DNA of 64,000 nucleotides, from positions 1 through 64,000 of the forward strand of contig CALDHM010000008.1 in NCBI GenBank assembly GCA_937941455.1. Reading direction: 5' to 3'. The notes under the pieces were generated by a model, which ran no database searches, had not been told where the DNA came from, and saw only the letters and a list, made by a program, of their open reading frames with translations. This document shows positions 614 through 62,853 of the stretch, in pieces (positions within the stretch are counted from its first letter, which is position 1; every line of letters begins with the position of its first letter). Origin of the DNA: an uncultured Pirellulaceae bacterium (lineage in GTDB: Bacteria > Planctomycetota > Planctomycetia > Pirellulales > Pirellulaceae). A program made the translations under genes and the position numbers.

Positions 614-3819
<3,206 letters not shown>

Positions 3820-58096: not shown

Positions 58097-58297
58097 TGGA
58101 TCGGCTCCTGAAAAAAAGCAGTTCGCCACCAATCCTTGAGCTGTTTTCGATCCGAACTCCATCCATTTTTTCGGATGTCCGCTACTTGCGGACTATCGGT
58201 TTATCGTCCCGGCCGCCGCGCTTGCTTCACGAGCAGGTAAGGTTTCTGTAAAAATGAGAGTTTTCGTAGTCCCTATAATCCGCAATTCTGGCAATTG

Positions 58298-60238
58298 ATG
58301 TCCAAGCAATTCATTCTCGGCACGGCGGGGCATATCGATCACGGAAAATCATCGCTAATTCGCGCTTTAACGGGAATCGACCCGGACCGGCTGCCCGAGG
58401 AGAAACAGCGGGGGATCACGATCGAACTAGGTTATGCTTTTCTCGACCTGGATGATATCCACCTGGGGATCGTCGACGTTCCCGGCCACGAAAAATTCAT
58501 TCGTCAGATGTTGGCCGGGGCCACCGGCATGGACTTGGTCATGCTTGTAGTGGCAGCTGATGATTCAATCAAGCAACAGACGCGTGAGCACATGGACATC
58601 CTACGTCTGCTGGAGATCCACGAAGGGATCATCGCCTTGACCAAGATCGACTTGGTGGAACCGGATTGGCTCGATTTGGTGGAAACGGAGGTTCGGGAGC
58701 TAACCCAAGGCACGTTCCTGGAGGACGCGGAGATCATCCGAGTCAGCAGCAAAACGGGCGCCGGGTTGGACGACCTGCGGCAAGGGCTTTTCCGCGCGGC
58801 CTGCCGAGTTGATGCAACTCGCCGCGCCGCGGAAAACGGACCGTTCCGTATGGCGATCGACCGCAGCTTCACCATGGAGGGCTTCGGCGCGGTTGTTACC
58901 GGCAGTGTGAGTAGTGGTTCGGTCAGCGTCGGAGATGTCGTGGAACTCCAGCCAGCGCAAATCGAAGTCCGCGTGCGAGGGTTGCAAACACGAGACACAC
59001 CTGTCCCCAAAGTTTCGCGTGGGCAACGAGCGGCGGTCAATGTTTCGGGCCTGCGGCATTCTGAGATTCCACGCGGAAATGAGCTGGCCAGTGTGGGGTA
59101 TTTGCGGACAACCAAACAAGCGGCAGTAGACTTACTGGTGCTGCCCAGCATGGAACGTCCGCTGAAGGACCGTACGCGAATCCGATTCCATATCGGCACC
59201 GCGGCTGTTCCGGGGGTGATACGATTTCCCAAGGACAACCCGGAATTGCAACCGGGTCAACGGCGGATGGCAATGGTTTACCTCAACGGACCGATCGTGG
59301 CGACCTGGGGGCAACCATTTGTGATCCGCCTGGAATCGCCGCTGCGGACTCTTGGGGGGGGCCGAATCGCCTTCCCAGCACATCTGGCGACCAATCGTCC
59401 GACCCCACGCGATTGGCAGTATCTCGAACAGGCGATGTCAAATGATCCCCAGCTGCGGATCAGCGCAGCGGCTTATCTGGCGGCGTTTTCGCTTTGGCAA
59501 GTTGCGGATGTGATGCGTTGGACTGGGATCGCGGAGGCAGCGGCGGTGATCGACGCGTTGATTGCAGAAGGAACGATTGTCCGAATCCCACTCAGCAAGG
59601 AACGAACGTGGCTGCTCCATGCAGAACGGATGTCGGAGATTCGCGACTGGATCGTGGCCCAGTTGAGGAAATTGCATCAAGAATTTCCCTTGCGGTTAGG
59701 CCACGTTGTCTCTGAGGTGCAGAGTCGGTTGCATTTCATTCCTGAGCCGGAATTGTTTCATCGCGCGCTCGAGGGTTTACTCGCAGATAAAATCGTTCGC
59801 AAGGTTGGCAACCTTGTTGCCCTGGAGGGCTTCGGACCGAAATTGAGCAGGGGCGAGACGCAACTCTATTTCGAGTTGATTGAGAAAATTCGGGGAGTCG
59901 GACTCAAAGTCGACTCCCCTAAGTCTCTTGCCGCAGAAGTGTCCAAAAATCGCGATTCGGTACCGCAGTTATTGAAGCTGGCCGTCGATTCGGGAATCTT
60001 AATTGCGATTTCCGACGATTGGATCATTCATCGCGATACATTGGCGGCGGTTCAAGAACGGTTGCGGGAGGCCTTTCGCGAACAGTCCACGCTGACAGTT
60101 TCCGACATCCGTACCTTGCTCGACGTCAGCCGCAAATACGCGGTACCTTTATGCGAGTACTTGGACAAGGTCAACTTCACGATCCGCAATGGCGATTTCC
60201 GGACGTTGGCTGGGGCCGGGACTTCAGAAACGTATTGA
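58298..60238 (+). CDS. selB: Selenocysteine-specific elongation factor SelB
   Basis: A 646-residue GTPase that delivers Sec-tRNA(Sec) to UGA codons with a SECIS hairpin. The GTPase domain begins GTAGHIDHGKSSLIRALTG (G1), with RGITIELGYA (G2), DVPGHEKF (G3) and TKIDLVE (G4). Domains II and III follow, then winged-helix repeats near the C-terminus (AEVSKNRDSVPQLLKLAV, LTVSDIRTLLDVSRKYAVPL). ATG 58298 is used rather than the adjacent TTG. selA, selD and tRNA(Sec) genes are not in the window, and no selenoprotein was identified here. Confidence 0.94.
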   Translation: MSKQFILGTAGHIDHGKSSLIRALTGIDPDRLPEEKQRGITIELGYAFLDLDDIHLGIVDVPGHEKFIRQMLAGATGMDLVMLVVAADDSIKQQTREHMDILRLLEIHEGIIALTKIDLVEPDWLDLVETEVRELTQGTFLEDAEIIRVSSKTGAGLDDLRQGLFRAACRVDATRRAAENGPFRMAIDRSFTMEGFGAVVTGSVSSGSVSVGDVVELQPAQIEVRVRGLQTRDTPVPKVSRGQRAAVNVSGLRHSEIPRGNELASVGYLRTTKQAAVDLLVLPSMERPLKDRTRIRFHIGTAAVPGVIRFPKDNPELQPGQRRMAMVYLNGPIVATWGQPFVIRLESPLRTLGGGRIAFPAHLATNRPTPRDWQYLEQAMSNDPQLRISAAAYLAAFSLWQVADVMRWTGIAEAAAVIDALIAEGTIVRIPLSKERTWLLHAERMSEIRDWIVAQLRKLHQEFPLRLGHVVSEVQSRLHFIPEPELFHRALEGLLADKIVRKVGNLVALEGFGPKLSRGETQLYFELIEKIRGVGLKVDSPKSLAAEVSKNRDSVPQLLKLAVDSGILIAISDDWIIHRDTLAAVQERLREAFREQSTLTVSDIRTLLDVSRKYAVPLCEYLDKVNFTIRNGDFRTLAGAGTSETY

Positions 60239-60447: not shown

Positions 60448-61014
60448 ATGGACCCCTATCAAGTTTTGGAGCTAGATCGTTCGGCCACACGCGATGATTT
60501 GCGGAGAGCCTACCGACGATTGTCAGCGATCCACCATCCGGACTTGGGTGGCGAGTTGCAGACCTTTCAGAAACTGCAACGAGCCGCCGAGATGTTGGAA
60601 CTCGAGTTGGCGAGCCTCGAACAGCAGGCAGCGGATCCTGTCGAGCGGCAGAAACGACCCTCGGCCTGGCAACGATATATCGAACTCACTCTGATCTCGA
60701 TTTCGATACTCGTCATTCTCGGGATGATCGGCACCTCGATTACTCTGTGGTGGGTGGCCAACGAGCGAGACCGGCAACGAAACGAAGCGATTGCTGAACG
60801 CGTTCTGAACGACCCGTCGATCAAACAAGAGATTCAGCCAGGCGCTCGGTTACAGCAGAAGGTTATCAATGAGGTACAGGATGCAAATCGTGTATCGGTT
60901 CGCAGGGTGGTAGTATCGGAGGACGGGGTAGCTGTACCCGTCGACCCGAAGTTACTCGATTCCGGCGACGGCGAAGGTCATGCGCCCAAGTGGTTGCATG
61001 ATCAGCAAGAGTGA
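60448..61014 (+). CDS. J-domain protein with membrane helix
   Basis: A 188-residue protein. Residues 1-65 are a J-domain: MDPYQVLELDRSATRDDLRR and AYRRLSAIHHPDLGGELQTF, with the HPD motif needed to stimulate DnaK. A single membrane helix lies at about 80-105 (LTLISISILVILGMIGTSITLWW), followed by a charged tail with no known domain. The J-domain should face the cytoplasm to meet DnaK. No dnaK or grpE is nearby. ATG 60448 begins the conserved MDPYQVLEL. Confidence 0.85.
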   Translation: MDPYQVLELDRSATRDDLRRAYRRLSAIHHPDLGGELQTFQKLQRAAEMLELELASLEQQAADPVERQKRPSAWQRYIELTLISISILVILGMIGTSITLWWVANERDRQRNEAIAERVLNDPSIKQEIQPGARLQQKVINEVQDANRVSVRRVVVSEDGVAVPVDPKLLDSGDGEGHAPKWLHDQQE

Positions 61015-61128
61015 TGGTGTTATCGGATAGCTTGCCCTGCGCTACCGCGGAGTGGTTCAGTTCGTCACGAGAGGACCGGCTTAGTCGCGGGCGTCTGTCA
61101 ATGAGGCTCCGCGTCATGCCTTACGCAT

Positions 61129-61164
61129 AAAAAAAAAGGCCGAGTTCCCTTCCGAGAACTCGGC
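61129..61164 (-). terminator. Intrinsic terminator (minus strand)
   Basis: A perfect 9-bp stem (61139-61147 with 61156-61164) is followed on the minus strand by nine T residues at 61137-61129. No minus-strand protein gene ends here, so it probably ends the structured RNA listed above. Confidence 0.82.
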
Positions 61165-61272
61165 TTTCCGTTGTATCCTCTGGGCATCGGAGCGACGAGC
61201 GCCCCGATGCCCAGACAAAGCTCAGCCGTGAGCACGTGTTGAAAGGGTTGACCCAGATACCTCTTCAACACG
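61129..61272 (-). ncRNA. Candidate structured small RNA with own terminator
   Basis: On the minus strand four hairpins follow one another. H1 at 61272-61235 (CGTGTTGAA / TTCAACACG, 9 bp, extendable). H2 at 61233-61220 (GCTCA / TGAGC). H3 at 61214-61180 (CTGGGCATCGG / CCGATGCCCAG, 11 bp). The last at 61164-61139 (GCCGAGTTC / GAACTCGGC) is followed by nine T residues (61137-61129), a textbook intrinsic terminator. No protein-coding frame on this strand looks real, so a noncoding RNA is the simplest reading. It is not recognisable as tmRNA, RNase P RNA, SRP RNA or a tRNA. The 5' end and promoter are unknown. Confidence 0.5.
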
Positions 61273-61698
61273 AAAAAAGCTCTGACCCAGGAGGGAGGGT
61301 TTAATCCGAGGTTCCCGCTTCCTCGAACCAAATCGACTGAGCTGAGAAATGGCTTTTTCGCGGCAACCAACTGGCTGCACGTGGCGGTAGAAATAGCGAG
61401 TTGCGGCGGACGTTGCAATATCGATTGGGACGAAATTCGGAAAATTATTTTGCGGACAATCGTCGCTTTGACCTTCGGCATCACGACTTAGTCGGGATTG
61501 CTGCGAAACCGGGCGAAAAAACGGCAATTTTTCCGGGGATTAGGCCCGCGTTCGGCTTGGCGAAGGGCTTGAGGGATCAGACAGCGGTGGGGTAGAATCC
61601 TGCTAGCTCTCGGGAGGAGCACCCCGCAAAATCGGCCTTCGGTTGATCTGCGGACCCCGCATAGGCAATAAATTTCGAGCGAACTGCAGAGCGTAACG

Positions 61699-62853
61699 AT
61701 GAAAAACCTCTTGCTGATTGTTTCATTCGTCATTGGCTGCTTGATTACCGTCGTGATTCGCCAAGATAGCTTGAAGCAATCTTCGATCGGAAGTGAGATT
61801 TCCATTGCGGCCAAAGACGAATTCGTGGTGGCGCCTTACGGAAAAACCAGTCGCGGCGAAGCGGTGACCAGTTTTTCGATGCAGAATAAAAATGGCTTGA
61901 AACTTCAAATGATCGACTACGGCGCGACCGTAGTGCGGCTCGAGACTCCCGATCGCCAGGGAAAATTGGCGAATATTGTTTTGACCTGCCCGGATATTGC
62001 CGGCTTCGAAACCTGTACCATGTATTTCAACGGATCGGTCGGGCGCTACTGCAACCGAATCGCCGGAGGACGTTTTTCCATTAAAGACCAGACATACCAA
62101 CTCGCCCGGAACAACGGCGAGCACCACCTGCACGGCGGTCAACGCGGCTTTGACAAACTCATGTGGAAGGGGGAACCTTTCACGACCTCAGGGGCCCGCG
62201 GTGTTGTGTTTACTTTGCACAGCCCCGATGGTGATGAAGGCTACCCGGGCAACCTGAAGGTCACCGCCACCTATACGTTGACCGACAAGGATGAATTGAT
62301 TGTCGAATTTCGAGCGACCACCGACAAAACCACCCCTGTTTCGTTGACCAATCACAATTACTGGAACCTCGCGGGTGGGGGAACCATTCTCAATCACCAA
62401 TTGCAATTGTTCGCGGATCGATACCTTCCGGTCGACGAAGGTGGTATCCCGACGGGCGAATTGCGACCCGTGGCTAATTCACCATTCGATTTTCTCAAGC
62501 CCCACGAGATCGGGGCGCGATTCGGGGAACTCGAGGGTGAGCCGATTGGCTACGATCACTGTTATGAGATCAATGGCAGGCCCGGAGATATGCGGCTGGC
62601 GGCTCGGGTGCAGGATCCATCGTCGGGTCGTGTGATGGAAATCAAATCCACGGAATCGGGCATCCAGTTCTACACAGGAAAATTTTTGGATGGCACGCCG
62701 GCCAGCGGAGGCTACCCGCAGTACTCTGGCTTCTGTCTCGAAACGCAACATTTTCCGGACAGCCCCAATCAACCGAAATTTCCTTCGCCATTTTTGAATC
62801 CCGGCGAAACCTACTTCCACAAAACAATCCATTCGTTTAGCGTCGTGAAGTAG
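61699..62853 (+). CDS. galM: Exported aldose 1-epimerase
   Basis: A 384-residue mutarotase interconverting alpha and beta anomers of hexoses. N-terminal hydrophobic residues 3-20 (NLLLIVSFVIGCLITVVI) form a signal peptide or anchor with a possible lipobox Cys, unlike the cytoplasmic E. coli enzyme. The catalytic domain has FNGSVGRYCNRIAGGRF, NNGEHHLHGGQRGFDKLMW, the catalytic His in LTNHNYWNLAG and the catalytic Glu in CLETQHFPDSPNQPKFPS. ATG 61699 opens the protein. It stands alone between the RNA candidate and a glycosyltransferase gene. Confidence 0.92.
   Translation: MKNLLLIVSFVIGCLITVVIRQDSLKQSSIGSEISIAAKDEFVVAPYGKTSRGEAVTSFSMQNKNGLKLQMIDYGATVVRLETPDRQGKLANIVLTCPDIAGFETCTMYFNGSVGRYCNRIAGGRFSIKDQTYQLARNNGEHHLHGGQRGFDKLMWKGEPFTTSGARGVVFTLHSPDGDEGYPGNLKVTATYTLTDKDELIVEFRATTDKTTPVSLTNHNYWNLAGGGTILNHQLQLFADRYLPVDEGGIPTGELRPVANSPFDFLKPHEIGARFGELEGEPIGYDHCYEINGRPGDMRLAARVQDPSSGRVMEIKSTESGIQFYTGKFLDGTPASGGYPQYSGFCLETQHFPDSPNQPKFPSPFLNPGETYFHKTIHSFSVVK

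Follow-up and report, generated by a model that had tools for sequence, protein, structure and literature searches.

6S RNA, a structured RNA of about 200 nt encoded by one gene per genome, is a long hairpin that has a closing stem and, in its middle, a bubble; it binds to RNA polymerase and serves as the template of a product RNA. Small RNAs that derive from 3′UTRs or carry an anti-Shine–Dalgarno loop, for their part, often lie 3′ of an mRNA and come with a terminator. Among the candidate structured RNAs listed for Planctomycetes is the Rhodopirellula-1 motif, whose entry, in the excerpted table of PMC2864571, names Proteobacteria as well, gives no Rfam accession, and holds a "y" in a column that we take to denote cis-regulation. 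Here, we describe a predicted structured RNA gene of the window, that is, of the whole stretch of 64,000 nucleotides from an uncultured Pirellulaceae bacterium that was analyzed; it is single copy, common to many planctomycetes, and without a match in Rfam. This RNA is like 6S RNA in being structured, of ~200 nt, with a closing stem and one gene per genome, but it is built as a four-way junction rather than as a long hairpin with a central bubble, and matches no Rfam family. With the 3′UTR-derived or anti-Shine–Dalgarno small RNAs it shares the location 3′ of an mRNA, the terminator, and, in many members, a C-rich CCUCCU loop, yet its conserved fold is larger and the CCUCCU loop is not present in all members. 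The Rhodopirellula-1 motif, compared by its description, is alike in that it, too, was listed for Planctomycetes as a candidate structured RNA, and differs by the Proteobacteria and the apparent cis-regulation of its table entry (PMC2864571, same excerpt); the two could nonetheless prove to be one and the same RNA. In our reading, to which we would give a probability of roughly 0.7, the gene specifies an independent, trans-acting noncoding RNA of about 215–255 nt in which two GGG loops are displayed to a partner.

The locus had been singled out by a sequence-only reading that placed a small RNA with four hairpins and an intrinsic terminator at 61129–61272 on the minus strand. This segment is real and folds well, reaching −76.3 kcal/mol against −46.5 ± 3.9 in shuffled sequences (z −7.6, 0 of 200 as good), and its end is, as had been described, an 11-bp stem with nine T behind it. 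The segment covers no more than the 3′ part of the element, however, and misses the 5′ strand of P1, P2, P2b, and the 5′ strand of P3 (table 1). The fold is conserved from 61343, the start of the closing stem P1, down to 61129, and the covariance models R1 and R2 match the own locus at 61172–61346 and 61217–61346, respectively. Over 61130–61350, the folding energy is −107.9 kcal/mol (z −7.0, again with 0 of 200 shuffles as good), and the helices of this energy fold are those of the comparative structure, in which a 10-bp P1 closes a four-way junction (P2, P2b, and P3/P4) that is followed by the long hairpin P5 and then by the T9 terminator. These z-scores, together with the covariation reported below, rule out chance folding. 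When 60 genomes were searched by blastn with 61125–61400, distant matches fell mostly at query positions of about 100–200, which correspond to about 61301–61201 and thus lie partly outside 61129–61272; 55 of the 60 genomes matched at E ≤ 1 and only 15, own genome included, below 0.001, the matches above this value being taken as mostly due to chance.

Table 1. Features of the predicted RNA gene and of its surroundings in the window
Feature	Position	Strand	Remarks
Predicted RNA gene	61129..61383	−	5′ end inferred from candidate promoter; 3′ end is the terminator
Candidate −35 box, TTGCAA	61413..61418	−	Score 7 of 12 in total, weak alone; similar placement in same-genus locus L002
Candidate −10 box, TATTTC	61390..61395	−	17 nt after −35; TATTT boxes in several other loci without mur
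P1, 5′ strand (closing stem)	61334..61343	−	All 10 pairs changed on both sides
P1, 3′ strand	61219..61228	−	Pairs with the 5′ strand; all 10 pairs changed on both sides
P2 hairpin	61301..61331	−	Loop 61312–61320 with GCGGGAA; covariation and fold
P2b hairpin, ACCC-UCCCUCCU-GGGU	61285..61300	−	Loop resembles anti-Shine–Dalgarno; replaced by other hairpins in part of the class
P3/P4 arm	61230..61282	−	Loop 61250–61257, UCUGGGUC; outer P4 helix with 8 of 8 pairs changed on both sides
P5 long hairpin	61179..61215	−	Upper helix with 7 of 9 pairs changed on both sides in 22 sequences
Intrinsic terminator, 11-bp stem and T9	61129..61166	−	Sequence; common site type after cores
Aldose 1-epimerase, divergent neighbor (context)	61699..62853	+	PF01263
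DnaJ-domain gene, convergent neighbor (context)	60448..61014	+	PF00226

Conservation of the stems in relatives, one of the points by which the sequence-only reading had made its suggestion of an undescribed planctomycete RNA refutable, is borne out by strong covariation. Among 22 sequences (alignment A1, 22 of 23 rows, L031 being left out as the own locus a second time), 30 of 42 base pairs have changed on both sides, with 93.2% of the cells paired; in 39 sequences of wider range (alignment A3, 39 of 41 rows, the weak extra matches L046 and L015, with 22.3 and 17.2 bits, being left out), this is the case for 35 of 40 pairs, including 10 of 10 in P1, and in 57 model-found sequences for 38 of 40, with related sequences not being independent events in any of these counts. 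In the latter set, 92.8% of the cells are paired, against 72.5% in shuffles and 32–44% when the partners are slid, alignments A5 and A6 (57-sequence test) having been fitted to the covariance model and hence favoring its structure. In the 22-, 39-, and 57-sequence sets alike, 0 of 500 shuffles came up to any one of the five measures. As to the four hairpins initially proposed, P4, P5, and the terminator are supported, but the second small hairpin (61220–61233) is not: only one of its five pairs changed on both sides, a value that 354 of 500 shuffles equal, and its bases belong to the 3′ halves of the P3 and P1 stems, so that, with P1 as a competitor changed on both sides in all of its ten pairs, it was rejected as a conserved helix. 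This hairpin is nevertheless formable in 81.1% of the cells, versus 32–63% for slid versions, and an alternative fold that includes it is therefore possible in some members.

The strand had also been described as lacking a convincing coding frame, which agrees with what we find: two minus-strand frames, of 128 aa (with a GTG start) and 101 aa, cross the RNA region, and a Pfam search at E 1 gave no match for either of them. The 128-aa frame is open without stop in the same-genus locus L002 and is cut by stops in five of the eight other near loci examined (L003, L005, L006, L009, and L011). At the scale of the family, the spacing of the P2 and P4 loops falls into each of the three classes modulo 3 (48, 41, and 27 cores among the 116, out of 118 in total, in which both motifs occur), and the element as a whole thus does not maintain a reading frame; weaker evidence against coding comes from the closure of all three frames by stops in just 26 of the 118 cores. 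The failure of the sequence-only reading to recognize any RNA family likewise finds its counterpart in Rfam 15, which gives no family at gathering score in the RNA region or in 16 homologue loci, and none at E 0.5 in four loci. At E 10, the interval 61000–61700 yields nine sub-threshold matches only, the best of which is Pseudomonas P15 on the plus strand (E 0.033, 21.7 bits vs. a gathering score of 70). No description of the RNA was found in the titles and abstract openings of the open-licence PubMed Central papers retrieved by literature searches, which supports the notion of a family outside Rfam 15 and open-licence papers, the word "undescribed" being meant within that scope.

The RNA is widely kept without being ubiquitous. 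One copy was found in each of 36 of the 40 near genomes, own genome included, and no match in the four others (G006, G009, G041, and G043). Across 392 genomes sampled over the phylum, strict filters and the scoring of 6 and 8 candidates per genome make the counts of at least 18 and, with R2, at least 29 matching genomes lower bounds; the latter 29 all belong to the own class and are distributed as 12 of 12 genomes in the own order, 17 of 27 in group f21, and 0 of 1 in f22, with nine listed genomes of other classes and 343 further genomes being without match. The ten unmatched f21 genomes gave again none under laxer filters. Of 40 hand-picked genomes, 34 of which were without earlier match, 11 carry the RNA (3 of 3 in f1, 5 of 5 in f121, 2 of 8 in f118, and 1 of 3 in f119), with no match in f120 (0 of 1), f21 (0 of 10), and f22 (0 of 10). 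We would equate f21 with Planctomycetales; f118 and f121 would be Gemmatales, given the equal scores of loci with and without a taxon name (L101 and L058, L132 and L060, and L137 and G484). On account of the unmatched genomes in the near set and in f21, f22, f118, f119, and f120, the RNA is not universal in the class. A strict pattern, run on a collection of 84,980 species each represented by a single genome, returned 106 stretches; the 80 listed among them bear planctomycete names or plain "bacterium," each also matches R2, and they include Blastopirellula marina DSM 3645, Gemmatales, and a Thermoguttaceae bin. Another pattern, with 111 of 297, picks up chance matches as well and does not detect the own RNA, in which the P2 loop starts with AA. 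The RNA family predicted from these comparisons thus extends beyond the own taxonomic family to others, and is seen so far in the class Planctomycetia alone. One of its copies lies at 681558–681746 on the plus strand of contig C1 in genome G052.

Within the fold, the terminal loops GCGGG (P2) and GGGUC (P4) are constant while the stems vary. We counted them outside the alignment of the model (57 rows, of which 28 are absent from A3 and 27 of these distinct): GCGGG occurs in 27 of 27 distinct cores, GCGGGAA in 22, TGGGTC in 25, and GCGGGAA and TGGGTC together in 20. In A5, which comprises the 80 listed of the 106 named stretches, loop conservation is by construction, since the selection pattern contained both loops and CCTCCTGGG. 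Pairing of the P2 and P4 GGG loops with each other and formation of a G-quadruplex were set aside by inspection because some of the G runs are absent in distant members. Pairing with 23S or 5S rRNA was rejected as well, the complementarity amounting at best to three 9-mers with 23S and none of 10 or more.

With regard to genomic context, 128 loci were merged into 118 distinct cores, with upstream flanks of 700 nt or more in 111 of them and downstream flanks of 900 nt or more in 105. In 68 of the 111 loci, the 700 nt before the RNA contain the end of a mur ligase gene in the same orientation, and in none does such a gene end there on the opposite strand; mraY lies downstream in 18 of the 105 loci, all with mur upstream. 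At E 1e-5, the murF model matches all 24 scanned upstream proteins and the murE model 21 of these, so that murF and murE are not told apart, and the one upstream protein shown in full, that of L007, is below the murF cut-off; the nine scanned downstream proteins are all mraY above cut-off. On this basis, the RNA gene probably originated within a cell wall gene cluster and was kept where much of the cluster was lost. Short mur-like frames were also observed directly 5′ of the RNA in L100, L118, L148, and L158, and a mur-like frame runs into the RNA start in L010, L018, and L095; such mur-ligase-like frames are perhaps remnants of murF.

In PMC12283558, murA, murC, murD, murF, murG, murJ, and ftsW are given as lost in Pirellulales, Isosphaerales, and Gemmatales, murA, C, D, F, and G as not lost in Planctomycetales, and planctomycetes in general as devoid of FtsZ and partly deprived of wall genes, their division and wall being an open question. 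In an excerpt of PMC5147048, MraY is held to be likely present throughout planctomycetes. Among the 40 near genomes, MraY passes the curated cut-off in three (G037, G046, and G049), in each case on the same contig as the RNA and close to it; the best match of the own genome scores 68.9 bits against a cut-off of 192.05, and 39 of the 40 have some match to the mraY model at E 0.001. These sub-cut-off matches may correspond to related transferases or to a diverged MraY, the latter being possible in light of the weaker matches in 39 of 40 genomes and of the view expressed in PMC5147048. Whichever view of MraY holds, the predicted RNA persists even where the classical gene does not stand next to it, and its retention where no MraY passes the cut-off argues that it is separate from wall synthesis.

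How the RNA would be transcribed may differ between these contexts. Promoter-like sites scoring at least 8 were found in 26 of the 43 loci without mur (3.2 expected from 20 approximately dinucleotide-preserving shuffles per locus) vs. 0 of the 68 loci with mur (4.3 expected), and sites scoring at least 9 in 8 of 43 (0.8 expected) vs. 0 of 68 (0.7 expected). At a score of at least 7, the level of the site in the window, 34 of the 43 loci without mur have a site when 7.3 are expected, and nine have no promoter-like site at all. The copies without mur in L103, L137, L117, and L163 display TTGACA upstream, with spacers of 17–18 nt and −10 boxes starting with TA. Terminator-like sites follow 72 of 114 cores, against 4 of 114 in a control of one plain shuffle per core, and are found both with mur (38 of 66) and without it (30 of 42). 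Beside mur, the RNA would be produced as part of the mur transcript, at its 3′ end, and relocated copies, that of the window included, would have gained a promoter of their own from which they would be transcribed. What the sequences show is a conserved, single-copy predicted RNA fold that mostly comes with a terminator and persists after relocation.

Acting in trans, this RNA would then use its four-way junction to present the GGG loops of P2 and P4 as a surface for protein recognition, or to dock the loops on each other, and the outcome would be a small ribonucleoprotein whose role is independent of the neighboring wall genes; it is the conservation of the loops that suggests the protein partner. 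One may tentatively go further, with less than even confidence, and see in it a planctomycete-specific housekeeping RNA, of a standing like that of 6S or tmRNA, which would have arisen in the wall cluster and outlived it through its own promoter, and whose two GGG loops would be read by a dedicated protein.

Other explanations have to be weighed against this independent, trans-acting RNA. It could mainly be an antisense small RNA whose P2b loop UCCCUCCU covers the Shine–Dalgarno sequence of target mRNAs, which we consider unlikely: the single copy, the terminator, and the promoter-like sites would all fit, and CCTCCTGGG is found in 22 of the 27 distinct cores outside the alignment of the model, but in L046, a locus of the own family, and in the f21 members of A3 another hairpin takes the place of P2b while P1, P2, and P4 stay. 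The anti-Shine–Dalgarno loop is thus not family-wide, and this variation makes it unlikely, as far as the alignments tell, that the family as a whole has its core function there. Still less probable is an RNA that acts in cis, as a 3′UTR or leader element within the mur/mraY transcription unit. The strictly same-strand mur ligases and the downstream mraY genes speak for such an element, whereas the 43 of 111 loci without mur keep the structure, often with promoter-like sites. In the window, moreover, the RNA sits between the divergent aldose 1-epimerase and the convergent DnaJ-domain gene, with no regulated gene downstream on its strand; the sole nearby downstream minus-strand frame of at least 50 aa, which overlaps the DnaJ gene (60866–61117, 83 aa), is without a match in Pfam.

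Hardly credible, finally, is a strongly diverged version of a common housekeeping RNA, be it 6S, SRP, tmRNA, or RNase P. The single copy, the length of about 200 nt, and the wide retention are compatible with it, as is the lack of a 6S match in the own genome at E 0.001 (and of a match to RF00013 at gathering score in the window); yet tmRNA (RF00023, 185.1 bits, contig C47) and SRP RNA (RF00169, 40.5 bits, barely over the cut-off of 40, contig C21) are matched elsewhere in that genome, and Rfam returns none of its families for the homologue loci at the thresholds given above. The RNase P families, judged at these loci alone, have no match at gathering score in the end of the window or in the 16 homologue loci. 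As a stand-in for 6S, the RNA was rejected too: among the 40 genomes, 6S passes the Rfam cut-off in two, G045 (C95:5993–6185, L224) and G013 (C332:1266–1486, L225), which hold both RNAs at separate places. These two 6S-bearing genomes are of the own order or family. The absence of 6S has been reported for two named species, and no 6S was found in Thermogutta terrifontis, according to an excerpt of PMC5673643.

If the reading of an independent, trans-acting RNA is true, planctomycetes own an RNA that is widely retained among them and not covered by any Rfam family, and this in bacteria whose division and wall remain an open question. The surroundings of the RNA would record the decay of a wall gene cluster, and its persistence without an MraY above cut-off raises the question of its role. 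With Blastopirellula marina DSM 3645 as a carrier, the RNA is amenable to work in a cultured strain.

Two further elements of the window deserve mention. A group I intron lies within the 23S rRNA gene (617–3814), at 1676–1919 on the minus strand, above the Rfam gathering score, and a SelB-like selenocysteine elongation factor with SelB winged-helix domains is encoded at 58295–60238 on the plus strand.
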